This document shows positions 4,795-60,974 of a stretch of DNA of 64,000 bases, piece by piece. The position numbers were made by a program, and so were the translations under genes. The notes under the pieces are model-generated. The model did not search any database. It saw nothing but the letters and a program-made list of their open reading frames with translations, and had not been told where the DNA came from. Positions within the stretch are counted from its first letter, which is position 1; each line of letters starts with the position of its first letter. Source of the DNA: Eunapius fragilis (Eukaryota; Porifera; Demospongiae; Spongillida; Spongillidae); the NCBI GenBank assembly GCA_963681505.1, contig OY811972.1, forward strand, positions 8,822,775 through 8,886,774. Reading direction: 5' to 3'.

Positions 4795-5004
4795 GAACTG
4801 AACGCGGGAACAATTAAAGGTCATGAGAACTGGAACAAGAGAGGAAAACAAAGAGGGCAAACAATGACCTTCGCAACACAAATATACATAAAGAAATGGG
4901 CGGACAAAAAGAGTGCCCTACAAAAATCTTTGAGTTAAACCTGTACCTTGTCCAGACTGACATCAGTTGAACAGCAAGCAGGCGTCGCGATTCTATAAGT
5001 GGCG

Positions 5005-15544: not shown

Positions 15545-15930
15545 CTCCAGTAGGTAGTCTGGTAGCACACAGATGACATTATAAATCCTGGTAGGTAATT
15601 CCCATATATTGGCACCATGGTTATGTGCCACAGACCACACTTTTGCCCATGGTGTACAAAACATCATTATATGTAAACACATGTACATTGCAATACATCA
15701 TCATCATACATACATGTACATACATCAGTTGAACTATTTATAGCTACAAATGTACTAACAGTCTAAGCTAGAACACCATATCACACAACACTCCAACACT
15801 ACACTACCTCCATGCTACAAACACACTATTGCTACTTCTAAATATGCTTCAGTCTATACAATTTCTTTAATCGTTCAGCCAGGACCACATGGTCACAGGA
15901 AGAGAGGGCATCAATTAGCTTCCTCCAGGA
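15545..15930 (-). repeat. Gene 3' flank and tail duplicated at 1-395
   Basis: Covers the last codons, stop and 3' untranslated or flanking DNA of the large gene. It matches the window start in direct orientation at about 15.5 kb distance. Confidence 0.85.
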
Positions 15931-16115
15931 GCATGATGTGTCTGATTCCAACCAGAACTGAATAAGATGGCGTCGGCAATCCGCAACTTGTCCACGATTA
16001 TTAATATCAATTTCTTCTATCTTTGTAAGGCTAATATGTAGCTGGGTTCCCAGTGACTTCCAATCCACCACGTCTTTAAGAGCACTGAGTATATTTTTAT
16101 GAGTAAAAGTATGAT
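15838..16115 (-). CDS. Exon 19: Death domain and stop
   Basis: The acceptor TCTTTCTTCAG lies just before 16115. The 92 codons begin DHTFTHKNILSALKDVVDWK and include LGTQLHISLTKIEEIDINN, the typical helix 1-3 region of Death domains seen in UNC5, ankyrin and related proteins. It continues with RRHLIQFWLE and RKLIDALSS, ending LKHI-stop. Such domains assemble with other death-fold proteins. The last third is duplicated at 297-389. Confidence 0.8.
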
Positions 16116-19100
16116 CTGAAGAAAGACAGAAATAAACATGTGATACTGTATATAGGTGATGAAGAATACAAAAATTCATATAAACAGACAAGTGCATGTA
16201 CATGTAAAAGTACTCCACTTTCTAACAACGCTGTCACTCATGGTACAAATTGTGATGCTAATATAACATGTAAACTACAAACGTACCATTTGAATATTTT
16301 CTTTCCTCTGCAATCCATACAGTGTGATTAGAGATAAGGTCCATGTCAGTAGAACAGCTGGTACATGATGCCAGGTTAGGGTCACTATCATATGGTGTGG
16401 CCACACCCTTGCAAAATTTATTAGAACAGGCAAAGCCATCTTTGAGGAGCTTCAAACTATGATAACGGAGAACATCACTACATTTTTTAATACCATCATA
16501 TATCAGCTTTCGTATTCTGGGACAGGCTGTGGGAACGTCTCGTGCAGAATCAAGGTGCACCTCTATGAATAATGAGGAATCAATAATGGTGAATTGGGCT
16601 GGAAACTTTTTACATTTGAAAGACACGCAGTTCCTATAAAGACAAACTGGTACTTTATTCACCTCTAAAACTGAACATTCTGTCTGAATGGAAGAAACTA
16701 AGCAACTGAACAATCCAAATGGAACAAGATCATTTTGGAGGTGCAATAGGAGAGGTTGTGCTGATGCATTATGTCGTCTGATGCTCTCAGGACTAAGAGG
16801 GTCCAAAAGAGCTGGCATCAAGTAGTCACCACCTTCCAATGGAACCATAATGAAGAGGTGGCACATGAGGGCAGTGAAATGCTCTACATTAAATACATCA
16901 TCCAAAAAATGCTTCTCGAAGCGATTAACATAAAGAAAATCTTTGCTGACAATACCATGGTCCCTGAACTTAGAGCACCATGCATTCTTTACACCAGCAA
17001 TGCCCAACACTTCACCTCCAGCCAGCTCATGTTTACACTGGACTAGGTCTGAGATGATGTTTAGGATAACTTGGGGATCACAGAACACTATGTTGCGAAG
17101 AGAGGGTACATTATGGTACCATAGCAACAGGTTATATTTGACCATGTGCAGGAGAGCTGCTTCTAGGGCTTGCTCATCCATACCTAAGCTCCGTGCCAGC
17201 TGAAGGCATCTATGAAGGCTGATAACACCTCTTACAGCTGTGTGCTTTATCTGCATCTCTAGACCAAACCACTTTATAGGCAGGGAAGGAGTGGCTTCAT
17301 CATTGCAGTGATCTACTATTGCATGCCTTAGCTCACCAGCTACCTTTTGGTCATAGGAATCAGGGTTTGCACCATTTATATCCCAGATTACGTCCACACC
17401 ATTCTTGCATATCAGGTACTCTGAATTCACCATTTGCTTGATGACATCACCTTTTCCCCCCTTCGTCTCAGAACACTTATCCTCCTCATCGCGGTGAGTT
17501 CCTACTACAAACAAATGAGGACGGAAATCTCTGGCATGTGCAGCTCTCACACACTGCTCCAACACCTGCTTGTGGGAAGATGGAGACTTGTACGGATTTC
17601 CTACTGGTTGACTGTCCTTTCCGTAGAAATAGATCATAGGGCAGTGGTTGAGACTTTCAGAAAGGTTTATAGCATAGAGAACAACAGAAACATCTTGAAC
17701 AAAGACTGGTAAGAGCTCAAGAAACTGGGGCTGACCACCACTGTCAATGAACTGGACCAATCTAACGTTTAACACTTTCTTACTGCTTATGTTTTTGAAT
17801 GCTTCTATGAATAGACTATCTACTTCTCCAGTAGCTGGGTTATCAAACACGTCATGGTCACTATGATGCTCTGCTTCCAATGGTTCTAGGGTAGATGGTT
17901 TAGGAGCTGTCTTAGCTGGTTGAGAACTTTTATTAGTGAGGTTCTCTGAAGCCATTGGAAGTGATGGAGGTTGAGGTATCTGGGTTTTTGTAGGTGCAGG
18001 CTTCAAATGGTATGCACTTGCAAGGACCTGCATCAGCTTAGTCTCATCCATAACCTCCCACCTACCTGGATCATTCTCATCCACACCTGCTAGTATGGAC
18101 TTGACAGAGCCAACAAATGCCTGTACTGGGTTATCTGCCAGTCCTGTGCTAACACGACCGGTGGATTTATCATTACCATCTGGTAGGAGGAGCCTCTTGA
18201 GGTGGGTCTTCCCCACACCTGCTATCCCAAGCACCAGGCATTTGATAATCGATATATTTACTGAACCTTCCTTCATAGCTTCTTCATACAATTTTGTTGC
18301 CTCTGATAGAGATAGAAAATCATATTTATGCAAAAGCAACACACTTGAAGATCAACATTTCATCATCACTGCATGGGATTATGTGTCTCTTTTCATCAGA
18401 TCTTAAGTGTGTTTGGCCCAATAACACCTTACAGTTGCCACTTCATAAGGGTGGTAAGGGTTGTTACATTTTATGTACTTCATTACTTAGAAAGTGCTCA
18501 TTAATTAAATTACCATATATTAGACACACTTAGGATATTTCAGTAAATATGAGGGAAAAACCAGCAACATGCCTGGGTTGATTGTTACAGAAAGCCTTTT
18601 TATAATAGACATCCAGTCCTTGGTATATTGTAACAACTGGCCCTATGCCCTGCTGGGAGAACCATTCCCATCATGTCACCATAATGCTTTGCTCAGCTGG
18701 AATAGATATTAATGCACTACACAGCAAGCCCATGTATTGTTCATTATGCAACTCAAATTTCCCCTTTATATGAGATAATGTAGTTGCATCATGTACAACA
18801 GTTAGAATTGTAGCCACCCCACCAGCCCAATGACAAATGCACATGTAGGGAGATGGTCATCACACTGGTTGGTTGTCGTCATTGCAACAATAAAGAAACT
18901 TAGCTAATGATACTGTGCTTAAATGTTTAAAATTTCATCCCACTAAGTGTACCAGTGATGGTCCTCCCTATCAAGTGTGAAATGGTACACTTCCCTCTAA
19001 ATTTATTGTTACATTACCCAAACTAAGCAGAGTTACAAACAAATAACTCAAAGGTAAAATACAAAGACAACTGGTCTGACCCATCAGAAGCCAACATATT

Positions 19101-22100
19101 TAGAGTCAGCTGAGTCACTTCTCAATGCAATTGAAAAAAGAAGTGTTTGCTATATGTACATGTACTGTACAAGTAACAGGACTACAGTGTACATATACAT
19201 AAAACTAAGCTCCAATGCAATATATAGGTCTAAACAACTGGTGACATGGACAACTTACCAGCAAGCTGCTTTCTCTGCTGATCAAGAGCACTTTTATCAG
19301 CCATAACATGAAGGGGACTTCCCCCATTCCAAGGTGTCAGTGGTCTTAGGGATACCTTCACACATTGACCATACAGGTCCACCAAACCATACACACCCAT
19401 GGGGACAGTGCAGGGAAGTGTGATCATGTGGGCACCATTAATGAAGAGGTGCAAGGTACCAGAGTTTGTGTACAGCAGTCCAACTGTGTCCCCAACCTTT
19501 AGGTCATGGAAATTGATTTCATCAGGCAGTTGATCCACTTCCTGGTGAAATTAATACATATGTAAGTGTTGGCATGAGGTGCATGTATTTATATGAACCA
19601 GTTCATTCATTGCAGATGTACTATTGATACACTTCTAATGCAAGTCAAAAAACATGTTTTAAATGTACAGGTACAAGCTCATGTGGAATAATTGGTGATT
19701 AAGTACATAGTATCACTACATGTTTAAATTAACATGTATTTTGTGCCCTGTAGCAATACAAGGTGTTTCTCGATCCCTCCCTCTCCCTAAAGAACTTTGC
19801 AAGAGGATCTCACTCAGAATGCTACTCAATATATTTGGTAGCATCTTTCTATTGCTATCCAGAGGGAGCCTCATATTGACAAGCTAGTGAATAGTTTGCA
19901 TGTACATCACATACATACAATAACCAGTGAAACGTATAATTTTAATACAATGGCGGCATGGATTACTCTATAGCACACACAACAGATGTACACATGTACA
20001 TGAACTAAACAGTGTCATACCTGCCCTCCAACATACAGAGCTAAGGATGATTTGCCATTAACTGATGATGTCACAATAAAACTTTGTCCCAACAACTGCT
20101 TTGCATTGTCCACAGAAACCACCTGTGCTGTACTTTGTGTAGTGACTCCAATGGACAGAGAGCCACTCCATTTGGAGTCCACCTCCATAATCTCCACCTA
20201 TTGATGTGTAATCAGTATTCATAATATGAAATATGCACACATTCAAATGCACTTGCAGTTTTAGCAATTGCCAGAATTGCATGTATGTGTCTGTATACAA
20301 GAAAGGTACCAATAGGATAAAATAAAGCCACACATAAACATATATACTGTACCAACAAATAAGATGTTTTCCCCCCACAAACCTACAGTACCGGAATATA
20401 GAATAGAATGTAGAATATAAAAAATAGGTGAGTGCAGATATATTTATGCAGGCATGTGAAAAATATGTACAGTATAATTCAATGTCATCCCAAGGTCAAT
20501 TGTATACCCAGGTGTATAATCTAAAGCAGCCAAGATAACATGCACGAAAGTCACAACACTCACAACTGAGGCACCACATGTCAGTGAGGGACAACAGTAT
20601 GTGGTGAAAATGTCTAAACCTGTCATCCCACCTGAAAGATGACATCACTAGGAAGAGGAGCAGAAGTAATCACAATGCCTCTTGAGTTGTTATTAAATCT
20701 GCAGGCCACTTGTCCTCCATGTTCAAGTCTGATATTGTCACCATGTGTGGAGGCAAATGTGACCAACCTATTGAGAGGGAATATTGGAGAGAAGAGAGAG
20801 GGGAGGAGATAGAGTGGAGTGTGAAGGATCGTGAATACATTTGGTGGTACAAATGTTTACTCTTTGTGTTCCAACGGCTGCTTTATCTGTAAACAGACAA
20901 ATATACATTTCATAATGACATGTACATGTACTCCTGACCAAACACATAAAAATCACATGCCATGGAAGCATACATCTCCTAATTCAAAAGCAACAACAGT
21001 GCTCCTCCCCATACTTGTAGTATCCTGACCTCTTATCTGTAGCTTCCACCACTATTACCCTTGTTATGTAACAGTAGTGCAATTGATTGTCTGTACATGT
21101 AAATGTACTTATTGTGCTGCAAGGTGGCTCATTTGTCCTCTTGTGTCGCCTTGGTAACCTACATGCAATTACTACATCGACCATCACACCCCCAGATCAC
21201 ACATAACCCAGACTACTCACCTCTGAAGGCTTCAGGTTATTCTGTTCAGTTAGGCCATTATCCTGAAGCAGTACATGGGAATATGTACATCATTGATGGT
21301 ATACAACAACACATGCAACATTTGGTGCTCATGGAAACACTACATGTATATCATCAGATGTCTTTATTTTATCTTCAGTGCCTATTCAGAAAACACAGAT
21401 TTAATAGTACACGATTTCAAAATGGATTTTATTTTCTTATGTCTCTGCGTTTAATCATTGCCAAATAAATAATTACGTACATACCATACAAATAACATAT
21501 ACATGTATACACTATAATTCAAGGGCTACGGCAGACAAATCATGGGCCTGCAAAGTCTGAGCATTTTGCCTCATTAATACAACCAACAAATGGCAATCTA
21601 CAGCTCATGTAATGAAGTTAATGAAGGTTGATGGTTGTCTGCAGCAGACAACTAGTACTTTTCAGAATACTTATTGAAATCAGTTATGTTAGACGTACAT
21701 AACATGGAGGTCACAAGTGAGTCACACAAGCAAGTAATTACATGTAAACAAGGGTTATGCAAAAGCACCTCACAGTACAATGTGGTCAACAGTGATACAG
21801 TTATACATGTAGATGTTACATGTTGGTCTGCAAAATGTACATAGCAAATTATCTAACATATTTAAGGATTTATGACATCATCAAAAGGTTGATACTGCAG
21901 GGGATTATTTAGCTGAACACATCTGAGCACCAGACATAACACCAGCACACACATTAGGTGTCTATGTACATGTACATGCACACCTAACCTAACCTTGCTC
22001 ATGTTAAGCTTCAGTAGTTCAATTATTTCCTTGTGACCCTTCTTCACAGCTATGTCCAGGGGTGTGCTCCCATCCTGAAGACCATACATGTACATGTACA

Positions 22101-25100
22101 TGAGTGATATACATGTACTTATGCATGCCATCATGTGTGAATGGATATCAATACACCTGCATTTCTGCTAATACTAAAACACTAAAGGCAATGAACAAAA
22201 AGTTGTATTACTTGATATTCTTTTTCTTGAATTCATACATGTACATGTACATGTACAATAACATATATTTTGGTACTTTATGAATAATAATAAAAAGCAG
22301 GAGCTCGCAACACCAAACACGTTCCATCATATCTCTCCACCACTACATTTGTAAACATCACTTACATCAGATGTTGCTATATTCACATCAGCACCAGCTC
22401 CCAACAAGGTCTGTACTACATCATGATGACCCTCCTCACTTGCCATAAACAGTGGAGTCATATTTTGCTGGTATGGAGAGAGGGAGCAAAAGCATCAACA
22501 TTGTGGAGTAATACACACAGTAGTTGGGGACATGGGGTGGGTGGTATGACCTCCTGGGCTTTATAGAAAATGATGTGAAAGTGTCTGGAGATTTTTATTT
22601 ACGCTCCCCAACCACACACACGTACTTAACCAGATACAGTGACCTTCATAGGAATAGTTACATCAGCAATACAATGATGGAAGGTACATGTAGTAGCACA
22701 ACATGTACATGTAACAATGGCAATTAATTAAGATGATAAAATAAGTGTATTGTAGTTATCAAGCCGAAAGGTATGATTTTTAATAAACTAATATTATCTA
22801 AAACATAAGCACGACTTTGAAAGCTTTCCCAATTAGTATGTGGTACGTTATAGGCTCAAAGAAATTGATGCTATTGTAAATGTACATTGAAACGCTGAGC
22901 AATATGGAACACTGACGCATTGGGTTATGCTTACCACATGCATACATTGAGGTATGTTTGCTGAAAGGTGCCAGGAATCATAAAACATTTGCTAATATTA
23001 TTGTAATCAACATTACATTTTCTTAGATCTGTCACGGAGCAAACGGTCCGCTGAGTAAAGTGTCCGCCCGGACCATTTACTCCGGAGTAAGTTGTCCTAG
23101 AACACCTTACTCCGAAGCAACCTGTCCCTCTAGGACAAGTTACTTCGGAGTAAGCTGTCCCAATCTGGAGTAAACTGTCCCTACCCCAACTCTCTTCCCG
23201 CAGACAATTTACTCCGGAGTAAGATGTCCTAGGACAACTTACTCCGGAATAATCTGTCATAGGACAATTAATTCCGTAATAATGTATCCTAGGACAGTTT
23301 GCTTTTCGCTGGATTAATGCATGCTTGTGCCCTGAGTTCAACTGACATCAGCAAACTCTCGTTCCTTGTTTTCATCTGTCCTCACATGAGTTTCATCCAT
23401 TTACATCAGCTATAATGTAGTAGAAGTCACATACAACCTCTGAAAGCCAGCTGGCAGCTACGCTCCTTATCGGTAGTGATTAACAACTTACACCACGTGG
23501 CTGCACACTAGTTTGAATTGCAATTTACACGATATATATGACGGACCACTTATTCCGTCGGGGGACAATTTCCTCCGGAGTAAAATGTCCGGTAGGATAA
23601 TTTACTCCGACGGACACTTTTCTCTGTGACAGATCCAACAGTGTTAAAGACTGCATAGCCTGCCTGCATGAGTCAAGGGAAGTACATGTAGGTTATTCAT
23701 TAATAGGACAGACAGGCATGTTTTGTGAACTAAGACTGGAAAATTGCTAGAGTCTGGATGTTATGGTCCATAGCAACAATGAATTGTGCATCCCATAGTG
23801 GGGTTAAACCTGAAAATTAGGGGCCATCCCTAGCTGTTTGGAGGTCTTAATCTCTGCAAAGTACCTATTGGTAGATCAACCTGTCAACCTGTGAGGTACT
23901 TATTATTGAACCATTATGGATGGTTAAAATTTGTATTGTTGAGAAGGTGCTCTGTTGTTGTAAGCAGAAAAAAATTATGAGAATGGCATCACAGTAAATT
24001 AAAAAATTCGCTTCAAGGATTTATGACGTACATGCTTATACACGGGGTGATTAAATTGCGACTCATTATCCCCAGAATGCATTCCCATCATGATACTATT
24101 CACCTGCTTACATAGAAAATATACTTTTCCTAGCAATTCCTTGTTTTCCGGGGCATTGGAAGCCCCCCCCAAACATTTGGGCCAGCATTTTTACGTGATT
24201 ACATAGAAAGCACATGACATACCATCACAAAGCTTATATGTGGTATTAGTGGTGCCAGAAATGGCAAATTAAAACCAATATTACAAACTGTCCGTCACTT
24301 AGATTGGAAAGGTGGGGTCAATCGTAGTGGTCACGTGTTAATGACAAATAGAAAGAATGTCACAAAGCTGCAGCCTTAATTCATAATTTGGAATGATCTT
24401 CCCACTTCAGACCATTCTTCCTGCATTTAGACTGGGCCAAGTGCCAGTCAAATATCATCAAGCAACAGCCTTGTATCATGTCCACCAGCTCGATCTACTG
24501 TAGCCTCCAGTCTCCACTATTATGCCCCAACTGGATAGCACTGAGTCCTGAGATGCAGAGTGCCTAGTACATGTACATGTAGTAGTAGTACCAGTCATTT
24601 ATCATCATGCAGCACTCCAGCATCATGTCTCTCAGTCATACATGTACATTTGTTTAATACATGCTCACAATGTACATTTAAGTGTCCTGCTTCACTGCAC
24701 ATGATTAGTTTTCTTTGTTTCATGAACATAAGCACTCCCAAATTTTTATAAATGACTATGGCCATGATTTTAGACCAGCCAGAGGGAGTTTCAGTTTACG
24801 TACTTACAAGTAGCCATTTAAAAAATCAGGCACATTGTAAACTTCAAGCCACAATTTTTACAATATATTTACTCGTAAGTTCAAGCCAAGAAACAGTGTC
24901 CCACAGAGAATGTTAAAATGGGGCTACAGAGAAGGTAAAGGTCGTATAAGTAGCAGAACTAGTTCTAATGAATTTTTTCAGGCCATCAGGTAAATGATCA
25001 ATAAATCACACACTAGCACAAGCAAAGCACACACGCAGTATTACGTTTCAAAGGGGTATTTCGTTAAAAGGGGGTACATTTGGCTATACCCACATGCATA

Positions 25101-28100
25101 GTTTGTTACGAAATTCAGAACTCCACTTATAGGCAGAGGTACATGTACAGTTGTAGATAAATGTTGACATGTTCAACTTATTTTTAATTTGGTGTTAACC
25201 CTGTAATCGTCTGGTAAACCCCTGACCGCAAGACATTATAAATGGAATTTAATATCATTCTACAAATGAGTTCAGCCTCTCATATCACTTGTTTAAAGCA
25301 TATCTGTGTCATGTACATGCATGATGATAGTTAATTTACTTAGTCCAGTATGGAAATGTATCACCTAAATTAAATATGTACACATAATACTAGTCAACTG
25401 CATGGAATGTACTTGAGAAATCATGAGTAATCTAAAAATACGAGCTCTTCATCAAAACAGCATGTCACCTAACTCCCTTACCATACACTGATTAGTCCAC
25501 ATCCCATCACTCCCTTCACCAACTCATCTCTCCACATGTAATCATCACTTACAGTAGTTGTTTTATTCACTCGAGCACCAGCTCCCAACAAGGTCTGTAC
25601 TACATCATGATGACCCTTCCCACTTGCCACGAGCAGTGGAGTTGCATTGCTCTGGTAAGGAGAAAAAGAACAAATGTATCCAAGCTATAAAACCAAGGGA
25701 GAAATGTTTTCACTGTCCATCACAATCTCTCCATGCAGCCTCCTATACTCTTCAATCCACTAGTCATGTCTGTTCTGATAGCTTTCGTGAGATGTTGAAT
25801 CTTCATTTACACCAATGTTCACACAATGATCGATTAGTGGGCAGTAATGGCAAATTGTTTTATGTTGGCTCATGTGTATAAACTACAGAAATGCCGTCTT
25901 CAGTGATTACATGTAAGGCAACAAATTGATGGTCCTTCCAGTTCCAGTACCTACGCTTGATCCACATACATGTAACTAATGAATTCCTATTGGTGGCCCC
26001 GCCCCTGCCATCCCAGCTCTTATAAATACATTTAACTGTAGGATTACTGCATGTAGTTAAAATAGCTAATAACACTCATCTGTGAGTACAAATAGTGACT
26101 ATCAAGTGACTATGATTGATAATGCCACTCCCCGTTTGGCGCCTGTCGTGGGGTTGGCCCCTCCCTTTGGTCAGCGGTGGGGCCACATATGATTACACCA
26201 ATAAAGTGTTACAAACGTCACTGGCAATGATAGAAAAACACCTACATGAATACATGTGTATATTTAGCATGCAATCAATTATCTTTAACAACAGATAATG
26301 TACATGTACCACTTACAACAAATCTTGCAATATTGATATCAGCACCAGCTCCCAACAAGGTCTGTACTACATCATGATGACCCTTCTGACTTGCCATAAA
26401 CAGTGGAGATGAATTGTTCTGTGTAAGGAGTGAAGGAACAAATGCATCACAGGTGCACATGCATGTAAGAAGGGAGAGAAATTTGAAAGTGAATATGAAG
26501 AAGAGAAGTGAATGAGATAAGTACAGTGGGAAAAGGTGCATGTTGGGAGGGTGTATAAAGAACATCAAAATCAGTCTAATTTGTACTCTGATCCAATCAC
26601 ATGTCAAACCAACCTTATTAGCCTGATTGATATCAGCTCCTGCTTCTATGAGTTTCTTTACTACTTCAAGGTGTCCTTTGAAACTTCCTATCAACAATGG
26701 ACTCTGACCATCCTAATCAAACAGTGATACATGTACAGTGTACATGCATATTGTTAGTTGAACGTCCATTAAAACCTACACCTCCAACCTCACAAGAAAG
26801 ATGACATAGGATTACAAATACAGTACCAATCAGAAAATTGTTTCTGTAACTTAGTACAGTTTTAACTAACGTAGTATAGCATCATGTCGTAATACCTTGA
26901 CCCACCATGGTCTACATGTACATGTACATGTAGACTGATAGGGTAATTCATAATATTATTATGAATAAGGCTACATGTACATGTTGGCATGCCTACACCC
27001 CACACCATCAATCTGCTTTGGTCATCAAGGGTTGTGATAACCTGTGCTAGGTTGGTACACTTTTATCAATCACTTACCCCTTAACTGAGATAAATTTGGG
27101 GCTCTTTACATTGAGGTATGTCATAAAACTTTCTATGGGCAGATGTTGGGAATTCCAATTGGGTGATGGCTGACCAGCGTCCATCAAAGGGTGGTAGAGA
27201 CAGCATGTACAGTTTTGGGTGGATGTGCTATGTGCCCCAGAGTGGATCGTAGGAAGGGTATGCTATACCGTTCTACTCCAAACCTACGGCATATACAAGG
27301 ACAAATCAGCAGTCGGCGTGGGTGAACACAGGATTTGTGGACCTTGCTGTTGCTGAGCTGCTCAGTGGGGGTTACGTCCAGACAGTAAGTGCTAAACCAT
27401 ATATTTGCAGCCAGCTATCAGAAGAAGTGCTTGGTGCTTAAAATTGTATCATATGAACCAGTTTGTACGGAAACAGACATTTTATTATGAGGACTTGTGT
27501 ATTACCATGATGCTTTTTCGACCAGGTGAGTATACGATGTATGTTTACTTTTGATTTAAAGTCGGGTTACCACCATGTGGAGGTGGTGGAGGCACATCGT
27601 AAGTACTTGGGTTTTGATGGAAAGTATTTTCAGTTCTCAGTGCTGCCTTTTGGTTTGTTGTCATCATCATACATGTATGTGTTCTTTAAATTAATGCAAC
27701 CATTGGTTAAGCTATGGTGATCTAAGGGGTTAAAAAGCAGAGATGTACCTGGACAATGGCATACAACTATGGGTAAAATAGAGGCCGAAAAGCCCAGTGC
27801 ATTGGAGAGGTTTAGTTGTGCACGAGAGTAAGTCAAATTTGCAGATAAATATAATGCTCAGTTAGACAGTTTTTGCATGTTCAGGAATGAAGGCAGTGGA
27901 TGCATTCACTGTTCACTGGGATGAAGAGAATAATTGGTTGTGCCCACCACCTGGGCTGGTGGTTAGAGTGATTAGACATGCAGAGGTGCTACCAACCACT
28001 GTGCTAAACAGACTAAAACAGTAGAGCTGAGAACACAACTAGGAAGTACCTGGGTGCCTTCAAGAGATGGAAACTGTGGGCAGAGGCAAGGCAAGGGGTT

Positions 28101-40100: not shown

Positions 40101-43100
40101 ACCCCATCATGCGGGAGTATTGAAGATTCTTGCTGTTCAGTGTGGTGTTGTAGAATGACACAATGCAGCAGTCAAATGGAAGGCATGTGGCACATAGAAA
40201 CGTGTTGCAGGGGAATTGGATTGGTTGTCCTAGACACATTAACTCATCATTTGCAGATTACATCTGTGTAGATGACAACTTGTATGCGATTTTTGTGGTG
40301 CTATAGTCTTAATATGTTGTACAAAAGTCAGTATCAACTGGCCTGGCCTGGGTACTGCCACATGCTTCAGGTTTGCACCATTAAGCCACGTAAAAGGGGG
40401 CACTACATACTCTATGGTGAAGGAGGAAGGACTGAATTGTGAAAGAATTTTTTTTATTGCACACTACCTTACAGGTACTGATGGCATGGTTGCACCTGTC
40501 ATGTGGCTCTAACAAACATTTGTAAAAGTGTTCGGCTTCGTGACGCAACTGTTACATGTTTCATCATCACTCAGCACTTGAACGTGAATAACTTGCATGG
40601 GTGTTGGATCTTAGGACTGTCTTTTTGTGTGTCAATATAAAAGATTGACAGTAGCTCTTTATGGTTGTTTAGATGGCCTGACCAGCACAAATCATCCAAT
40701 TGACACTTCTGCTTAGGTTCCATTGTAGCTGTAGATTGCTCGCGGTGTGTAAATTATTCACGGTTTTGTAAGAGCTCTTACGCCTAGTTTCAGGCGCGTA
40801 GCACGAAGCCGAATTCATCAAATGATTCACTGATCCTTTCTCTTTCTTCTGAGCGTTTTACAGCTCATTTAATAAGAGCAATTTTTTACAGTATGAAATC
40901 TAACTCATGGCATTTTTAGTTATGTTGAGAAGAGCCTGTATGCGTGGCCACAAGTACATCGTAGTCGTAATAGTATTCGATTGCGCAAATAGTCCTTTAA
41001 TATTTCAGATGTTTACTAAACATTAATTCCTTATTGGGTTTTGCATTGGTACCAAAGGCCAAGTGCAGGCAATCTCCGAAGTTAAGTGACAGTTAATGAG
41101 CTCTATGGCGGCCATTTTTTTAGACATACCGTAATTCAATCCTTACGATCTAATTTCAAAACCTATTGTCACGTACGGAACAGCCGTGAACGCAATTTCG
41201 AGGCAGCTACGAAAATATTCTACGGCAGTGACCGTACGTATTGACGGATAATTAAATTGGCCGGTAATCGGTTAATTAGACTTCATAAGACCGTATGTAG
41301 GCTTTTAGTCTTTTGTGTATCAAAGCCTAAAAGCGAGTCCTCCAGCAAATTCTAAAGCTATTGGTGCAATTTTCATTGCTTAAAAGTGTTCCTGTCCTGA
41401 GTTATGAGTTCTCAAGAAGAAGAAGCAGACGACCCGCCCATTATTTTTGGAAGGGGAACGAGGACAGCAGTATTTTTCGTTCTCGACAACCACGCGGTTC
41501 TACGACGTGAAACAAAAACGAAACTACTCAGTTTTGACTTCTAGATCGATTGCCGCAACAAGTTAGACGATCCGATCGTCGGGAGCGAAGCTATGGTAGG
41601 GTCGCGGGATTTTAATTAAATTCATAGTCGGGGTCAAAACCTATATGGAAGTCTCTAGCGAGACTTCCGATATTCAACATCTCAAGTGCCATCTGAGGTG
41701 GAGGGGAAGTTTACATGTACATGGAAAGTACACCATTAAACCATCCACAGAGATGTACAGAGATGTATAGAACTGTAGGCATGTCAAGCTGCATGCTGTG
41801 ATCAGCTGCTTAAGATAAAACAAGTATAAGAATAATAATAAAATGCAGGAGCTCGCAACACCAAACACATTCCATCACATTTCTCCACAACTACATTTGT
41901 AAACATCACTTACATTAGATCTTGCTATATTCACATCAGCACCAGCTCCCAACAAGGTCTGTACTACATCATGATGACCCTCCTCACTTGCCATAAACAG
42001 TGGAGTTTTATTTAGCTGGTAAGGAGAGAAGGAACAAAGGCATCCTTATATGTGGTGCAATACACACAGTAGTTGGGGACATGGGGTGGGTGGTATGACC
42101 TCCTGGGCTTTATAAAAAATGATGTGACAATGTCTAGAGATTTTTATTTACCCTCCCCAACCACCCATACATGCATTAATACACTGTGAACTTCATAGGA
42201 ATAGTTACATCAGCAATACAATGATGGAAGGTACATGTAGTAGCACAACATGTACATGTAACAATGGCGATTAATTAAGATGATAAAATAAGTGTATTGT
42301 GGTTATTAAGCTGAAAGGTATGCTTTTTAATTAACTAATTTTACATAAGCACGACTTTGAAAGATTTCCCAATTAGTATGTGGTAGATTATAGGCTCAAA
42401 GAAATTGATGCTATTGTAAATGTACATTGAAACGCTGAGCAATATGGAACACTGAAGCATTGGGTTATGCTTACCACATGCATACATTGAGGTATGTTTG
42501 CTGAAAGGTGCCAGGAATCATAAAACATTTGCTAATATTATTGTAATCAGCATTACATTTTCTTAGATCTGTCACGGAGCAAACGGTCCGCTGAGTAAAG
42601 TGTCCGCCCGGACCATTTACTCCGGAGTAAGTTGTCCTAGAACACCTTACTCCGAAGCAACCTGTCCCTCTAGGACAAGTTACTTCGGAGTAAGCTGTCC
42701 CAATCTGGAGTAAACTGTCCCTACCCCAACTCTCTTCCCATAGACAATTTACTCCGGAGTAAGATGTCCTAGGACAACTTACTCCGGAAAATAATCTGTC
42801 ATAGGACAATTAATTCCGTAATAATGTATCCTAGGACAGTTTGCTTTTCGCTGGATTAATGCATGCTTGTGCCCTGAGTTCAACTGACATCAGCAAACTC
42901 TCGTTCCTTGTTTTCATCTGTCCTCACATGAGTTTCATCCATTTACATCAGCTATAATGTAGTAGAAGTCACATACAACCTCTGAAAGCCAGCTGGCAGC
43001 TACGCTCCTTATCGGTAGTGATTAACAACTTACACCACGTGGCTGCGCACTAGTTTGAATTGCAATTTACTCGATATATATGACGGACCACTTATTCCGT

Positions 43101-46100
43101 CGGGGGACAATTTCCTCCGGAGTAAAATGTCCGGTAGGATAATTTACTCCGACGGACACTTTCCTCTGTGACAGATCCAACAGTGTTAAAGACTGCATAG
43201 CCTGCCTGCATGAGTCGAGGGAAGTACATGTAGGTTATTCATTAATAGGACAGACAGGCATGTTTTGTGAGCTAAGACTGGAAAATTACTTGAGCTCTGA
43301 TGTTATGGTCCATAGCAACAATGAATTGTACATCCCATAGTGGGATTAAACCTGAAAATTAGGGGCCATCCCTAGCTGTTTGGATGTCTTAATTTCTACA
43401 AAGTACCTATTGGTAGATCAACCTGTCAACCTGTGAGGTACTTATTATTGAACCATTATGGATGGTTAAAATTTGTATTGTTGAGAAGGTGCACAAAACA
43501 TTATGAGAATGACATCACAGTAAATCAAAAAATTTGCTTCAAGGATTTATGACGTACATGCTTATACATGGGGTGATTAAATTGCGACTCATTATCCCCA
43601 GAATGCATTCCCATCATGATACTATTCATCGGCTTACATAGAAAATATACTTTTCCTTTGTTTTCCAGGGCAATTGGACGCCCCCCAAACATTTGGGCCA
43701 GCATTTTTATGCGATTACATAGAAAGCACATGACATACCATCACAAAGCTTATATGTGATATTAGTGGTGCCAGAAATGAAAACCAATATTACAAACTGT
43801 CTGTCACTTACATGTAGGGTGTAAATGTGGGGTCAATCTTAGTGGTTACGTGTTGATGATAATTAGAAAGAATGGACATCACAAAGCTGCAGCCTTAATT
43901 CATAATTTGGAATGATTTTCCTACTTCAGACCATTCTTCCTGCATTTAGACTGGGCCAAGTGCCAGTCAAATATCATCAAGCAACAGCCTTGTATCATGT
44001 CCACCAGCTCGATCTACTGTAGCCTCCAGTCTCCACTATTATACCACTACAGTGAGATGCAGAGTGCCTAGTACATGTACATGTAGTAGTAGTGCCAGTC
44101 ATTTACCATCAAGCAGCACTCCAGCATCATGTCTCTCGGTCATACATGTACATTTGTTTAATACATGCTCACAATGTACATTTAAGTGTCCTGCTTCACT
44201 GCACGATTATTTTTCTTTGTTTCATGAATATTATAATATAAGCACTCCCAAATTTTTATAAATGACTAAGACCATGATTTTAGACCAGCCAGAGGGAATT
44301 TCAGTTTGCGTACATGTACTTACAAGTAGCTTTTAAAGATCAGGCACATTTTCAACTTCAAGATGCAGTTTTTACAATCAATTTCAAACGAATATATTTA
44401 CACGTAAGTTCTATCCAAGAAGCAGTGTCTCACAAAGTATTTTTAAAATGGGCCACTACAAAGATGAAGATAAAGGTCGTATAAGTAGCAGAACTACATG
44501 TAGTTCAAATAAGAATATCAATCATTTTTTCAGGCCATCAGGTGAATGATCATTATATTACACAAAGCACACACGCAGTATTTCGCTATACCCACATACA
44601 TAGTTATGAAATTCAGAACTCCACTGAGGCAAAGGTAAATGTACAGTTGTACATATGTTCCACTTATTTTTATTTGGTGTTAACCCCGTAATCGCCTGAC
44701 AAACCCTGACCGCAAGGTATTATAAATTAATACTATTGTACGGATGAGTTCTTAGTAAACCGTATATAATTCAGCCTCTCATATCACTTGGTTAAGGCAT
44801 AATAGTGTCATGTACATGCATGATGATAGTTAATTTACTTAGTCCAGTATGGAAATGTATGACCTTCATTAAATAATACTAGGCAACTGCACAGAATGTA
44901 CTTGGGAAATCAATCATGAATAAAAGTACTACGTCAAAATGGCATGTCATCCAGATCAGCCACATCCCATCACTCACTTCACCAACTCATCCACAACTAA
45001 ACATCACTTACATCCGATGTTGTTTTATTCACTCCAGCACCAGCTCCCAACAAGGTCTGTACTACATCATGATGACCCTTCCCACTTGCCACGTGCAGTG
45101 CAGTTGCATTGCTCTGGTAAGGAGAAAAAGAACAAATGTATCCAAGCTACAAACCGAAGGAGAAATGTTTTCACTGTCCATCACAATCTATCCATGCAGC
45201 CTCCTATACTCTTCAATCCACTAGTCCTGTCTGTTCTGATAGCTTTCATCAGATGTTGTTGGCTCATGTGTATAAACTATAGAAATGCCATCTTTAGTGA
45301 TTACATGTAAGGCAACTAATTGATGGTCCTTTCAGTACCTATGCTTGCTCCACATAACTAATGAACATTACCATTGGCAACCCCCTGGCCCCCTCCCCTC
45401 CCAGCCCTTATATTTACATGTATAAGTACATGTAACTTTAACTGTGAGCATTGCAATAATGTTACTGCATGTAGTTACATGTATGTGTTTCTAAAGTAAA
45501 ATAACTACTAACACTCATCTGGGCATACAAATAACGATGAACAAATGACTAAGATAGCAAAGTCAATGATGCCCATTCCTCTTTTGGCGCCCTTTGAGGG
45601 GTTGGTAAGCACTGGGACCACATATGATTACACCAACAAATTGTAAAAAGCGTCACTTGCAAAGATAGAAAAAAACCTGCATGATCACACACAAGTTTAT
45701 ATTTAACACGATGTTGTAGTGAATATTATTCACATCAACAAAAGATGAATGAGATAATGTACATGTGCCACTTACAAGAGATCTTGTAATATTGATATCA
45801 GCACCAGCTCCCAACAAGGTCTGTACTACATCATGATGACCCTCCTGACTTGCCATAAACAGTGGAGTTACATTGTCCTGGTAAGGAGTAAACGGACAAA
45901 GGGATCACAGATGCACATGCACATAAGAAGGTTGAAAGTGAATATGAAGAGGAGTGAATGAGGTAAGTACCGTGGGAAAAGGTGCATGTTGAGAGGGTGT
46001 ATAAAGAACATCAAAATCAGTCTAACATGTACTCTGATCCAATCAAAGTCAAACCAACCTTATTAGCCTGATTGATATCAGCTCCTGCTTCTATGAGTTT

Positions 46101-46833
46101 CTTTACTACTTCAAGGTGTCCATTGAAACCTGCTATCAACAATGGACTCTCACCATCCTAATAGAAGAGAGATATATGTATAGTGTACATGTACATGTAT
46201 ATTGTTAATTTCAACGTCCATGAAAACCTACCTCCAACCTCACAAGGATTACATGATTGCAAAATATTACATAATAAGACATACATGACGTATGTGTACA
46301 AGAAGTCAGAAATGCATGTCACTTTACCAATTTTACCACGATTGTCTCTTCAAACAGTAACAAAGGTTAGAAGCTTCTGTAGTTATATTTACACGACATT
46401 ACAGTTACATGTACCATTGGATGGGATAAAATGATGTAATATATGGCCGCATGAATCAATACAGGTGCGAACAAAATTTCTACGACAATTTTCCAGACCG
46501 TAGGATTTTCTATCTTGATATTATTATTTATGTACTGTACAATAGTTAACTTCTGTTATGTAGTATTATTATGTGACTTTGATTCAGCATTATGTGATGA
46601 GCCCATCTTAATTAAGCATACAAAGTATCAGCAACACTACAATATTTCTGCTTGCGTTGTTTATAAAAGCCATAATTGCAGTAGTGGTGAAAGAAAAATA
46701 GCACTGACAATTAGAAACATCTTAAATCTACATCACATTAAGTCTTAGATGAAAAAAAAGGACTTACACGATCAGGATTTTCTATCGAATGTAATAGCAA
46801 TGACCGCACTGTACACCCCAATTTTTTTCCCAT
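15838..46833 (-). CDS. ANK(11)-NHR-ROC/COR-Death multidomain signalling protein (19-exon model)
   Basis: Exons (minus order): 46833-46768, 46157-46059, 45877-45776, 45113-45012, 42015-41914, 30901-30800, 30383-30282, 26712-26614, 26418-26317, 25651-25553, 22467-22366, 22074-21994, 21262-21221, 20886-20861, 20767-20632, 20197-20021, 19541-19259, 18302-16287, 16115-15838. All have AG acceptors and GT donors and the phases match throughout, giving 4116 nt (1371 residues). Approximate residues: leader 1-22, ankyrin repeats 23-386, linker 387-408, NHR 409-607, GTPase plus COR-like 608-1279, Death 1280-1371. Likely a cytosolic scaffold and nucleotide switch: ankyrin and NHR bind partners, ROC/COR switches, Death recruits a death-fold adaptor. 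The splice structure was read by eye; some exons may be alternative or missing. Function is inferred from domains. Confidence 0.7.
16287..18302 (-). CDS. Exon 18: ROC-like GTPase and COR-like region
   Basis: This large 2016 nt exon runs between acceptor CTATCTCTATCAG and donor G/GTACGT. G1 is GIAGVGKT (about residue 633), G3 is IDSGGQPQF (about 793-801) and the G4-like motif is VGTHRDE (about 881). DxxGQP and THxD are typical of ROC-type GTPases. About 150 residues, including a Pro/Ser/Thr-rich linker, separate G1 from G3, longer than usual. After it comes a COR-like stretch: LHRCLQLARSLGMDEQALEA, then LRNIVFCDPQVILNIISDL. The end has Cys pairs (CSNKFC, CTSC) that could bind zinc. A STAND-like NTPase is the alternative, but the QP after DxxG favours ROC. 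Confidence 0.75.
18303..19258 (-). other. Intron 17 (about 956 bp)
   Basis: Between donor G/GTAAGT at 19258 and acceptor TATCAG at 18303. No further coding segment or repeat recognised inside. Confidence 0.65.
19259..20767 (-). CDS. Exons 15-17: Neuralized homology repeat (NHR) domain
   Basis: Three exons (20767-20632, 20197-20021, 19541-19259) join in frame. They read FASTHGDNIRLEHGGQVACR, NNSRGIVITSAPLPSD, then MEVDSKWSGSLSIGVTT, then LKVGDTVGLLYTNSGTLHLF, INGAHM and VYGLVDLYGQCVKVSL. This is the full order of an NHR domain, a beta-sandwich found in Neuralized proteins and used for protein binding. No RING finger follows, so an E3 ligase role is not supported. The introns contain only AT-rich DNA. 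Confidence 0.85.
20861..21262 (-). CDS. Exons 13-14: short linker exons
   Basis: Exon 13 (21262-21221, 42 nt) reads DNGLTEQNNLKPSE between TGCTTCAG and GTGAGT. Exon 14 (20886-20861, 26 nt) reads IKQPLEHK plus two bases between TTTGTCTGTTTACAG and GTAAAC. Exon 14 is needed to reconcile the phase-0 end of the ankyrin part with the phase of the first NHR exon, which supports it despite its size. A micro-exon is easily missed by gene finders. Confidence 0.6.
21994..22467 (-). CDS. Exons 11-12: ankyrin repeats 10 and 11
   Basis: Exon 11 (22467-22366, 102 nt) starts QNMTPLFMASEEGHHDVVQT and ends ADVNIATSD before GTAAGT. Exon 12 (22074-21994, 81 nt) is DGSTPLDIAVKKGHKEIIEL plus LKLNMSK, a shortened capping repeat. 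Both are phase 0 on both sides. Exon 11 is nearly identical in sequence and flanks to exon 5 (41914-42015). Confidence 0.85.
23030..23631. mobile_element. Non-autonomous DNA element with CTCCGGAGTAA repeats, copy 1
   Basis: Ends are TGTCACGGAG and, reversed, TGTCACAGAG, flanked by GATC on both sides. The interior repeats TTACTCCGGAGTAA and TGTCCTAGGACA in both orientations, giving many possible hairpins. An open frame on the minus strand (22931-23341) is made of these repeats and is not a gene. Confidence 0.7.
23632..25552 (-). other. Intron DNA between exons 10 and 11
   Basis: AT-rich, shared with 43174-45011. It includes a CATACATGTACATTTG...AATACATGCTCAC stretch (24636-24760) that is the unoccupied form of the BEL insertion site at 47113/54083, and an AATTTTTATAAATGAC stretch that is the unoccupied form of the DIRS-like insertion site at 54176/62341. 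Confidence 0.7.
25553..26712 (-). CDS. Exons 8-10: ankyrin repeats 7-9
   Basis: Exon 8 (26712-26614) is DGQSPLLIGSFKGHLEVVKK then LIEAGADINQANK. Exon 9 (26418-26317) is NNSSPLFMASQKGHHDVVQT then LLGAGADINIARFV. Exon 10 (25651-25553) is SNATPLLVASGKGHHDVVQT then LLGAGARVNKTTT. Lengths are 99, 102 and 99 nt, all phase 0, with donors GTTGGT, GTAAGT and GTAAGT. They are paralogous to exons 2, 3 and 4 (46157-45012). Confidence 0.85.
27085..28272 (+). pseudogene. DIRS-like retroelement relic, copy 1 (reverse transcriptase and recombinase start)
   Basis: Plus-strand segments read WVNTGFVDLAVAELLSGGYV, FDLKSGYHHVEVVEAHRKYL, FQFSVLPFGL and YLDNGI (the YxDD site with the second Asp changed), then YLGAFKRWKLWAEARQGVP from the recombinase N-terminus. 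Stops and shifts separate them. It ends abruptly near 28272. The Tyr-recombinase pairing with this type of RT indicates a DIRS-like element. Copies 2 and 3 are at 32061 and 62929. Confidence 0.7.
28453..28484. mobile_element. End fragment of the Sola-like transposon family
   Basis: AGGGTGGCTCAATTAAGTATGGAATGACTC closely matches the right terminus of the transposon ending at 61836. The rest of its inverted repeat is not visible, so this is a relic end. Confidence 0.55.
28485..29130. other. Intron DNA with a small hairpin
   Basis: Part of intron 7. It contains a foldback at 28897-28970 (CCCTCGTGAA ... TTCACGAGGG with TCCTAA/TTAGGA at the tip). A weak, degraded echo of ankyrin-exon flanking sequence lies near 28690-28790, without a usable exon. 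Confidence 0.5.
29131..29372 (+). pseudogene. Reverse-transcriptase fragment, plus-strand copy
   Basis: Reads GADVNDSIGL, DIKQVWYTDDATADGSLTAL and IQHGPMYGTTKSWLMVK with stops between. YTDD is the RT catalytic box. It is an inverted, shorter copy of 29740-30115. Confidence 0.6.
29620..29638. repeat. Poly-G tract (19 G)
   Basis: Uninterrupted G run lying between the two inverted reverse-transcriptase fragments. Confidence 0.9.
29740..30115 (-). pseudogene. Reverse-transcriptase fragment, minus-strand copy
   Basis: The minus strand reads DIKQVWYTDDVTAG, later ASERLANSGLNITSEGGKGA and LGLHHCAENYIREMVKELLS, interrupted by stops and ACATGT insertions. Order and motifs fit the RT family whose C-terminal part is at 677-1642. 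Its upstream flank (to about 30400) is also found at 63715-64000. Confidence 0.6.
30282..30901 (-). CDS. Exons 6-7: ankyrin repeats 5 and 6
   Basis: Exon 6 (30901-30800) is TNATPLYIASENGHHDVVQT then LLGAGAGVNIVTSD. Exon 7 (30383-30282) is TNATPLYVASQNGHHDVVQT then LLGAGAGVNIARSD. Both are 102 nt, phase 0, with CCTTACCAG acceptors and GTAAGT donors. They differ at only a few codons, indicating recent duplication. Confidence 0.85.
31294..32060. mobile_element. TTAA-flanked non-autonomous element (piggyBac-like), 767 bp
   Basis: TTAA lies at both sides (31290-31293 and 32061-32064). Ends are CCTTTAATCTCC and, reversed, CCTTAATTCTCC. Each end carries the perfect palindrome GTCCTACGCGTAGGAC. The related locus at 27083 (CCCCTTAACTGAG) shows the site without the element. 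The interior is AT-rich with no transposase. Confidence 0.8.
32061..34213 (+). pseudogene. DIRS-like retroelement relic, copy 2
   Basis: Same family as copy 1. RT pieces: WVNTGFVDPAVAELLSGGYV, HVEVVEAHRKYFGFDEPYVF (with codons missing after GFD) and AVMYLDNGICAVKGKIEAKK. A degenerate GTGGCCAGTGAGT repeat lies at about 33000-33290. Recombinase pieces follow from 33495: YLGAFKRWKLWAEARQGVP, then DVRLLVLCLVAFAGFMHCDE and TSSKTDQYREGSS. The copy breaks exactly within the recombinase HSLR motif (GMHSL) where the CT-rich minisatellite starts. Not functional. Confidence 0.75.
34212..34506 (+). repeat. CT-rich minisatellite, about 25-28 bp unit
   Basis: Around eleven imperfect copies of CACACCAAGACTCCTCCCTTCACCCT. 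It begins at the break in the recombinase relic. Confidence 0.9.
34507..35495. other. Intron DNA, no feature recognised
   Basis: Mixed-composition sequence within intron 5 of the large gene. Open frames are short and show no domains. Confidence 0.5.
35496..35754. mobile_element. Foldback element with 27-G run
   Basis: GTTCACAACAACGGAAAAG at 35523 pairs with CTTTTCCGTTGTTGTGAGC near 35745. Arms of about 100 bp (35521-35621 and 35651-35748) surround a 30 bp AT-rich centre. G27 at 35496-35522 forms the left edge and GCCCCTCC the right. No clear target duplication. Confidence 0.75.
36004..36150. repeat. Copy of ankyrin-intron sequence
   Basis: GATGTTGGGAGGGTGTAGAAATGGCAAC... through GACCCACCACAG...GGGTAATTAAT parallels 30495-30650 and part of 26530-26945. 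This is a further intron fragment of the ankyrin region. Confidence 0.7.
36151..36445. repeat. Near-perfect long hairpin (135 bp arms, 25 bp loop)
   Basis: The left arm 36151-36285 (AACAAGTAAATAAAAAC...TATTTAGCACA) and right arm 36311-36445 are reverse complements with almost no mismatches visible. If transcribed, as it would be in the intron of the large gene, it would fold into a long double-stranded RNA. It could be a foldback MITE or a fresh inverted duplication. Confidence 0.85.
36841..38070 (+). pseudogene. piggyBac-like transposase N-terminus running into a coding-derived minisatellite
   Basis: From ATG at 36841: MALDMTKLGEVFDSMNRDED, FCVVNIDFNNASSDDNMDG, then a stop at GGGTAG. Another frame keeps an acidic EVEEDENEADYNPTSPLHP-like segment. 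From about 37025 the DNA is an array of CACATCACCACTGCACCC units, which gives Thr/Ser/Pro/His-rich open frames in several registers. The array unit matches the codons for the TSPLHP segment, so it probably expanded from the gene itself. No catalytic domain remains. Confidence 0.6.
38071..41270. other. Interior of piggyBac-like element A
   Basis: 38071-38540 matches 47400-47900 in inverted orientation. 38540-41200 is absent from element B. At 39338-39512, on the minus strand, is a stretch (GGCGGCACCCTTCGGGCTTC...) related to 62089-62250 near the end of the DIRS-like element. An open frame on the minus strand at 39085-39666 mostly covers this repeat and shows no domain. Confidence 0.5.
41276..41828. 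other. Intron DNA, nothing recognised
   Basis: Unique-looking sequence between element A and the duplicated ankyrin block. No coding evidence. Confidence 0.5.
41914..46157 (-). CDS. Exons 2-5: ankyrin repeats 1-4
   Basis: Exon 2 (46157-46059, 99 nt) is DGESPLLIAGFNGHLEVVKK then LIEAGADINQANK. Exon 3 (45877-45776) is DNVTPLFMASQEGHHDVVQT then LLGAGADINITRSL. Exon 4 (45113-45012) is SNATALHVASGKGHHDVVQT then LLGAGAGVNKTTSD. Exon 5 (42015-41914) is LNKTPLFMASEEGHHDVVQT then LLGAGADVNIARSN. Exons 3-5 are 102 nt; all are phase 0 with good splice signals. Confidence 0.85.
42570..43173. mobile_element. Non-autonomous DNA element with CTCCGGAGTAA repeats, copy 2
   Basis: 604 bp, same ends and internal palindromes as 23030-23631, and same position relative to the ankyrin exon. 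It is carried by the segmental duplication rather than being a new insertion. Confidence 0.7.
43174..45011 (-). other. Intron DNA between exons 4 and 5
   Basis: Duplicate of 23632-25552. It holds a second unoccupied BEL site (44137-44260). Confidence 0.7.
46256..46767 (-). other. Intron 1 remainder
   Basis: AT-rich, no repeat or exon recognised. Confidence 0.5.
46768..46833 (-). CDS. Exon 1: start exon of the large gene
   Basis: The minus strand has ATG at 46833 in a GTTACGATGG context, 22 codons MGKKLGCTVRSLLLHSIENP then DR, and donor CGT/GTAAGTCC. The phase-0 end fits exon 2. The last residues resemble the end of an ankyrin-type helix. It lies outside the duplicated block, so only one copy exists. 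The alternative is that this is an internal exon and the true start lies further upstream. Confidence 0.55.
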
Positions 46834-49872: not shown

Positions 49873-49877
49873 TTAAA

Positions 49878-52193: not shown

Positions 52194-52750
52194 TCTCCAG
52201 TTTTGGTCTTCATAGCAAGCCTCACAACATCACAGTTCTGCCTTTTCTCTTCAACTGAACCAAAAGTTTTGATCAACATTGTTTCTACTTGCTCAGTAGG
52301 TAGTGACAGTGCTGTCTTCAGTTGATTTGTTATGTAAGATCTCTGACTACCAGAGTCAAGAATCATCCTGGCTGGTATGACTGGGGATGAACTATCGGGC
52401 CGAAGAACACCAGTTGTTGCTGTCTGAAGTAGTACTGGAGTTTTTGCGTCCACGTACAATGTCACAACAGGAGGTTTACTTCCTTTAGGTACACGCTGAT
52501 GATTTACACTTTCATCAGATGCACTTGATGACGAAGATTTTTTCTTTTGGGCAGTCCTGGAACAAATGCTAGTGTGATGTCTTCCTGAGCAATTGTAGCA
52601 CTTCGTGGTGAATTTGCAGTCCCTGCTCATGTGGTGTTTCCTTAGGCACAGAAAACATCTGCCAGTCTTAGTCAGGACTTGCTTCCTGGCATCAGAACCA
52701 ATCACTGTCATGAGACTGATGATTGTGACTGTCCACAGTAAGAACAGCAT
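52160..52750 (-). pseudogene. BEL zinc knuckles and aspartic protease
   Basis: CFLCLRKHHMSRDC and CYNCSGRHHTSIC are two CCHC-type knuckles. MILDSGSQRSYITNQL is the protease active-site stretch (DSGS). Frames shift at both edges, against gag (around 52720) and pol (around 52180). Ordinary decay or programmed shifting cannot be told apart. Confidence 0.8.
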
Positions 52751-53898: not shown

Positions 53899-53899
53899 T

Positions 53900-53917
53900 T
53901 CCCGGCTCGAAGGACCA
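53900..53917 (-). promoter_or_regulatory. BEL primer-binding site
   Basis: TGGTCCTTCGAGCCGGGA on the minus strand directly follows the 5' LTR. A TGG start and TTCGAGCC-like body are as expected for pairing with a tRNA 3' end. Confidence 0.8.
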
Positions 53918-54082
53918 TAAAAGAGAATCGTTCGCGTTTATATTGACTACGAATCTACTCCAATGCAGTTGCGCACGGCGGTTGTCAAGCACTTCTCTAC
54001 AACAACAACAATAATAATACATCACGTGCGGTTACGTAGTTACGTAATCGTTCCAACACATTTGTGTGTGTATTTTCTAACA
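53918..54082 (-). repeat. BEL 5' LTR (165 bp)
   Basis: Partner of 47118-47282 with only a few substitutions, suggesting a fairly recent insertion. Confidence 0.9.
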
Positions 54083-60892: not shown

Positions 60893-60974
60893 CTTCAGCT
60901 AGGAGACACGATGAAAACTAGGCTATGTATCAGTCTATATATACTGAGCTGGACAACGACATGCCTCCTATAAT

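Follow-up and report, generated by a model that had tools for sequence, protein, structure and literature searches.

A predicted ankyrin-NHR-Roc-COR-Death gene of the sponge Eunapius fragilis and the variable contact face of its ankyrin exons

The stretch of Eunapius fragilis DNA analyzed here, 64,000 nucleotides of contig OY811972.1 and referred to throughout as the window, carries a predicted gene whose product would join, in order, ankyrin repeats, an NHR domain, a Roc-like GTPase with a COR region and a Death domain. Judged from sequence comparison the gene is one member of a large, recently multiplied family, and one of the two types of ankyrin exon from which it is built, termed B below, is hypervariable at the contact face of the repeat. 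Taking the domains together with what is known of similar proteins, we give an even chance to the reading that the product is a kinase-less, DAPK-like ROCO protein that would act as a receptor inside the cell.

Rebuilt by script from the sequence, the gene comprises 19 minus-strand exons running from 46833 to 15838 (Table 1), with a predicted coding sequence of 4116 nt that reads in a single frame through 1371 residues to one terminal stop. Each of the 18 introns begins with GT and ends with AG, and the phases agree at all junctions; an earlier note on this DNA had proposed nineteen phase-consistent exons encoding a protein of 1371 residues, and the rebuild reproduces that model to the residue, including both of its ends. 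That the exons might be chance frames is ruled out by the ankyrin scan with its shuffles, by the Pfam scores and by the exon rebuild. Each ankyrin repeat occupies an exon of its own, either of an A type (99 nt) or of a B type (102 nt, in one case 99), and because all of these exons are in phase 0 any number of them can be joined without breaking the frame. A block of four ankyrin exons is duplicated within the gene, the copies being 87% and 77% identical in the two pieces of the block.

Table 1. Predicted exons of the gene and the duplicated block within it (positions are those of the window)
Feature	Position	Strand	Basis
Exon 1: ATG (putative start), MGKKLGCTVRSLLLHSIENPDR, donor gtaagt	46768..46833	-	script rebuild
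Ankyrin exon, A type, 99 nt, phase 0	46059..46157	-	consensus scan and rebuild
Ankyrin exon, B type, 102 nt, phase 0	45776..45877	-	consensus scan and rebuild
Ankyrin exon, B type	45012..45113	-	consensus scan and rebuild
Ankyrin exon, B type	41914..42015	-	consensus scan and rebuild
Ankyrin exon, B type	30800..30901	-	consensus scan and rebuild
Ankyrin exon, B type	30282..30383	-	consensus scan and rebuild
Ankyrin exon, A type	26614..26712	-	consensus scan and rebuild
Ankyrin exon, B type	26317..26418	-	consensus scan and rebuild
Ankyrin exon, B type, here 99 nt	25553..25651	-	consensus scan and rebuild
Ankyrin exon, B type	22366..22467	-	consensus scan and rebuild
Last ankyrin exon, 81 nt	21994..22074	-	consensus scan and rebuild; present in 15/20 fetched stretches
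Linker exon L1, 42 nt	21221..21262	-	rebuild
Linker exon L2, 26 nt, sets phase 2 for NHR	20861..20886	-	rebuild
NHR exon 1	20632..20767	-	Pfam Neuralized and rebuild
NHR exon 2	20021..20197	-	Pfam Neuralized and rebuild
NHR exon 3 and linker	19259..19541	-	Pfam Neuralized and rebuild
Roc-like GTPase (GIAGVGKT, DSGGQP, THRDE), long G1-G3 insert, COR region, Cys-rich tail; 2016 nt	16287..18302	-	Pfam, profile comparison
Death domain exon and stop codon	15838..16115	-	Pfam Death and rebuild
Duplicated block, one copy, four ankyrin exons	22279..26818	-	self-comparison of window
Duplicated block, other copy, four ankyrin exons	41827..46263	-	self-comparison of window

The last ankyrin exon and the linkers L1 and L2 keep their place, splice sites and phase beside the NHR in most aligned copies of the gene (both splice sites of L1 are intact in 12 of 15 copies and L2 is intact in 14 of 15, the window included in each count), and this, together with the agreement of phases at every junction, argues against a division into two genes or several transcripts in which the ankyrin exons belong elsewhere and the NHR, GTPase and Death parts are read from an internal promoter. 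We hold such a division to be improbable, although it would fit with the 11-kb intron at 30902-41913, which contains retroelement-like pieces, with the putative status of the start in exon 1, and with the DNA that closes the window (63739-64000), outside the gene model, which is 89.7% identical to a segment (30064-30313) that extends into an ankyrin exon. Going by this resemblance, the gene model may be preceded by additional ankyrin exons.

A consensus scan of the window finds 11 ankyrin repeats, all of them on the minus strand, with no raw matches in two mononucleotide shuffles of the window, and Pfam Ank scores 272.6 bits on the ankyrin part. The three NHR exons, once joined, match Pfam Neuralized at 112.9 bits (cut-off 23.3) over profile positions 1-147 of 149, and the Death domain scores 26.3 bits, or 27.6 bits in a second scan, against a cut-off of 22.6. 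The 11 ankyrin repeats, the complete NHR and the Death domain that the earlier note had read from the letters are borne out by these searches. Among solved structures the NHR has its closest match in KIAA1787 (E 3.8e-13), which we take to be NEURL4, with Neuralized next (E 1e-7), and the nearest solved chain to the Death domain is FADD (E 0.0013).

For the GTPase with a COR-like region, claimed in the same note, the outcome is mixed, as the motifs are in place and a profile comparison supports them, yet both Pfam Roc and COR-A remain below their cut-offs. Roc scores 12.7 bits on the whole GTPase exon and 20.2 bits, as the top family, after removal of 102 residues between G1 and G3, in each case under the cut-off of 27; COR-A scores 27.5 bits (E 3e-6) over its full length, below its curated cut-off of 35.3, and COR-B has no Pfam match in the exon. 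Eight ORFs from the same genome were also scanned with Pfam, seven of which (L001-L005, L007 and L008) are clear LRR-Roc-COR proteins, six of them with a kinase, while the eighth (L028) matches COR-A only. A Roc-COR reference alignment was made from six of the seven (L002 was left out), five of these with a kinase, and was compared by hhalign with a query profile of three sequences, namely the window GTPase exon, L028 and L027. The resulting match, which begins at the G3 motif, runs into COR over 306 columns and includes a GTHxDE motif common to both profiles, has a probability of 96.8% (E 2.1e-10), as against 0.6% (E 0.097, 27 columns) in a control where the GTPase profile was set against the kinase regions of four reference ORFs. 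This comparison establishes, at the level of sequence, Roc-COR homology from G3 to COR-A, and homology is likely for the rest of the GTPase region; that COR follows directly after Roc is likewise supported by the profile comparison with its control, Pfam COR-A itself being below cut-off. An AlphaFold prediction of the exon has a pLDDT of 35.7 and the model is unusable, phmmer against solved structures returns a single weak match (Centrin, E 0.38), the three-row profile reaches the LRRK2 Roc among solved structures at E 0.13 only, and an NCBIfam scan of the exon gave no match. At its C-terminus (16288-16437, minus strand) the exon encodes a Cys-rich tail with GFxCxxxxCK and, in the window copy, later CxxC and H..W; the tail is shared in part with the distant L028, and no Pfam match was found there.

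The protein had further been likened to an intracellular sensor in the manner of NLR receptors. Since a Pfam scan of the exons finds no NACHT or NB-ARC match (AAA_16 reaches only 12.2 bits, cut-off 32.6) the protein is not an NLR, and that identity is rejected; the idea of a sensor fares better, drawing support from the expansion of the family, the exchangeable ankyrin exons and the variation at contact positions. A kinase match is also absent from the Pfam scan of the exons in the 19-exon model, and exon 1 and linkers L1 and L2 are too short to encode one. DAPK1 is built from an N-terminal calmodulin-regulated kinase and, further along, ankyrin repeats. Its group is described as ROCO proteins with Roc-COR and Death and without LRR (PMC6337361). 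DAPK1 is like the window gene in having ankyrin, Roc, COR and a C-terminal Death domain in this order and no LRR. The window model differs from it in having no kinase, in the NHR between ankyrin and Roc, in being multicopy, and in its one-repeat ankyrin exons. The ANK-Roc-COR-Death layout is that of DAPK1 minus the kinase, the NHR being an added part, and because the one is missing and the other added we do not class the window gene as DAPK1.

The earlier note knew of no described protein joining NHR, ROC and Death. In a search that covered part of the literature we likewise found no paper describing an ANK-NHR-Roc-COR-Death protein; the statement had, however, overlooked DAPK1, and two papers come near (PMC9334734, PMC8195603). 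The first, a survey of molluscs, lists COR, ROC, Death and NHR domains in its Fig. 6 legend for Aplysia TIR and COR proteins (PMC9334734), a likeness that comes from the legend's list of domains and not from domain combinations; TIR is among the domains and the legend is without ankyrin. In the second the Neuralized repeat is counted as SPRY-like, SPRY-like domains are said to be linked in immunity with NACHT or with Death-like domains, and ankyrin repeats are found in expanded Amphimedon TRADD-N proteins (PMC8195603); as presented in the sections available, the SPRY-like/Death-like immunity proteins, unlike the window protein, have no Roc-COR between those domains.

In the searched genome (219 Mb, 24 contigs) the window is part of contig C2, and this contig has at least 42 matches to the C-half of the NHR. 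For at least 20 of the 42 listed, COR-A is found 1.8-2.2 kb downstream on the same strand; among the matches listed, 22 of the 42 have no COR-A less than 10 kb away, and no NHR precedes 16 of the 36 COR-A matches on C2. For comparison of the paralogues 20 stretches of 10 kb were fetched around COR-A matches. The last ankyrin exon, the three NHR exons and the GTPase exon follow one another in 15 of them, a Death exon lies no more than 226 nt behind the GTPase exon in 13, and the full order ANK-NHR-GTPase-Death is present in 11, so that the architecture proposed for the window recurs when sought within this genome. Seven of these 11 copies are undamaged in the parts read, and four are damaged (a stop in the GTPase exon of L010 and L020, a broken frame in L012 and an early stop in the Death exon of L017). 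Elsewhere we find ankyrin, NHR and GTPase with no Death match in the fetched stretch (L022, L023, L024 and L025), the GTPase part alone (L016, L021), a GTPase exon whose likeness begins at residue 102, with Death present and NHR absent (L018, L027), and a distant relative (L028, 23%). The set of ankyrin exons adjoining the NHR differs from copy to copy. The GTPase part is 96.7-98.1% identical in 16 of the 20 copies, which points to a young expansion of the family.

Across L009-L027 the Death exons fall into two main versions (HTFTHKN or DTFTHKN; LAFN types), and the GTPase exons in front of them are for the most part nearly identical, a pattern suggesting that the copies have exchanged their 3' ends. 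Also on the 3' side of the GTPase exon, L016 and L021-L024 have a repeat reading VVYRGPH (or other frames), and L018 has a 105-aa frame that reads like mitochondrial ATP6 and may be mitochondrial DNA copied into the nucleus.

Comparison of the copies gives a pN/pS of 0.46 for the GTPase exon (16 of 21, with L012, L015, L016, L026 and L028 dropped for gaps or low identity), 0.31, 0.92 and 0.73 for NHR exons 1, 2 and 3, 0.62 for Death (15 rows, of which that of L016 duplicates L015 and that of L028 is an exon not beside its GTPase exon) and 2.14, from few sites, for the last ankyrin exon. Along the GTPase exon the ratio is 1.29 for residues 1-45, 0.72 for 46-165, 0.26-0.39 for 166-600 (again 16 of 21 copies) and 0.54 for 601-671. 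G1 is kept in all 14 copies that reach it, with one I to V change, and G3 and THxDE are each kept in 16 of 16.

Of the B-type ankyrin exons 24 were compared; residues 13-26 are nearly invariant and the most variable residues are 1, 3, 7, 8, 11, 12, 27, 32 and 34. The register of contact positions was taken from an alignment with DARPins that included their consensus repeat. In this register residues 1, 3, 11, 12 and 34 align to DARPin G3 residues 46, 48, 56, 57 and 45, the last deduced from 78 via the 33-residue period. The randomised residues of DARPin G3 that touch its target include 46, 48, 56, 57 and 78, and six positions per repeat are randomised in DARPins, the sixth not being named in the available part of the source (PMC3602593; PMC8683736 serves as DARPin background only). 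In 23 of the 24 B exons, the 99-nt exon having been set aside to allow residue 34 to be scored, the five contact positions have a pN of 0.386 and a pS of 0.099, a ratio of 3.89 (bootstrap 2.07-16.2), whereas the remaining positions have values of 0.063 and 0.074 and a ratio of 0.85 (0.58-1.26). The pN of the contact set, a set that was noticed after seeing the sequences, is reached by 1 of 20000 random five-position sets, and the excess shows separately in the 7 window-only and the 16 paralogue-only B exons. For the four other variable residues (7, 8, 27 and 32) pN/pS is 1.40 (0.89-2.33), and residue 31, which we take to be the sixth randomised DARPin position, varies little (pN 0.126). The introns that flank the B exons differ at 0.27-0.35 per site and third codon positions at only 0.099, so the silent sites of the B exons are unusually quiet; contact sites (0.404) exceed introns in 201 of 276 pairs. 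In the 14 A-type exons the contact-site pN is 0.230 versus 0.046 elsewhere (11 of 20000 random sets), with pS higher still, at 0.388.

Hypervariability at the contact face of the B exons is solid, and positive selection there, as judged from these substitution counts, is likely, though not proved. Under relaxed constraint residues 13-26, which are nearly fixed in the 24 B exons, should have changed as well, and no preference for the DARPin contact positions would be expected. We find it unlikely that the family is simply an amplified scaffold, DAPK-like and serving the cytoskeleton or autophagy, with ankyrin variation that stems from relaxed constraint and unequal repeat exchange instead of recognition. 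What speaks for such a scaffold is the closeness to the DAPK1 layout (PMC6337361), the young expansion with its nearly identical GTPase parts (96.7-98.1%), the fast introns, and the damage to some of the copies.

If the protein is instead a receptor inside the cell, as we prefer, its array of exchangeable one-repeat exons would bind variable ligands through concave and hairpin residues. Binding could then alter the nucleotide or dimer state of Roc-COR, by analogy with Roco proteins, which cycle with nucleotide and dimer state (PMC6337361), and the Death domain, going by its type, would recruit a FADD-like adaptor leading to cell death or inflammatory signalling. A role for the NHR is suggested by LRRK2 and NEURL4, whose binding is called exclusively Roc-dependent and is partly also ascribed to WD40; NEURL4 contacts LRRK2 through NHR3-4, the T1348N and R1441G mutations stabilise the contact, and NEURL4 bridges LRRK2 to HERC2 (PMC4565672, from the sections available). 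There, as in the window protein, an NHR meets a Roc, and KIAA1787 is the nearest solved NHR; however, LRRK2 and NEURL4 are two human proteins where the window has one chain, and LRRK2, as described in those sections, has LRR, kinase and WD40 and no Death domain. The NHR directly before Roc is a natural fusion of two partner types, which by itself would be no proof that the window NHR binds the window Roc. By analogy the NHR might pack, in a nucleotide-dependent manner, on its own Roc or on that of a partner, and might hold the switch, sense the state of Roc or couple it to the ligand.

A Death domain is unusual in ubiquitin or trafficking adaptors, and the exons scanned with Pfam gave no RING or HECT match; both points make it quite unlikely, in our estimate, that the NHR serves to recruit a HERC2-like or Neuralized-like ligase or a substrate, with Roc-COR-Death as a platform. 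Such an adaptor would be in keeping with the completeness of the NHR and with the link that NEURL4 provides between LRRK2 and HERC2 (PMC4565672).

Returning to the receptor reading, fungal ankyrin NLRs have highly alike repeats in which positive selection falls mainly on the face that binds, a feature linked to non-self recognition (PMC4986451), and they evolve their repeats in like manner to the window family, with a NACHT or NB-ARC switch and fungal effectors in contrast to Roc-COR and Death here. Brown-algal LRR-ROCO genes show one repeat per exon, exon shuffling, ligand-facing selection and splice variants (PMC11378527). They share with the window gene the ROCO family and the single-repeat exons and differ from it, to the extent that the available text describes them, in their phase-2 LRR exons and in an LRR-ROC-COR layout without NHR or Death. 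A broader proposal, which we put forward only tentatively, is that of an animal repertoire of ROCO-switch receptors, with dozens of tandem genes, ankyrin cassettes of phase-0 single-repeat exons that could be swapped among genes or skipped during splicing, contacts hypervariable as in fungal ankyrin NLRs, a Death output, and a built-in NHR-Roc contact kept in humans as NEURL4-LRRK2. Were the receptor reading right, the Roc-COR switch would, beside NACHT and NB-ARC, serve a diversified family of intracellular receptors, with LRR-Roc-COR-kinase genes present elsewhere in the genome, and the LRRK2-NEURL4 contact, a matter of human cells and Parkinson's disease biology, would gain a single-chain object for studying NHR, Roc and nucleotide state.

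Several other elements were noted in the window. An inverted repeat of 487 bp, 99.4% identical between its arms (57976-58462 and 61350-61836), lies around a 776-aa ORF (58568-60898, minus strand), and together they look like a recent DNA transposon. Three ORFs (783, 200 and 409 aa) at 49878-53937 on the minus strand resemble a retroelement of BEL/Pao type, and repeated pieces at 27081-28269, 32061-34217 and 62926-63465, of which the first two are intronic, contain reverse-transcriptase-like and tyrosine-recombinase-like frames that we take to be DIRS-like. A minisatellite block with a unit like CCCACATCACCACTGCA is present in inverted copies (36484-38545 and 47407-49876, 73-81% identical) and gives rise to long spurious ORFs. 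On the minus strand at 3474-4917 there are ORFs with a P-loop-like stretch (GCKAVGKTTLLKSLL).
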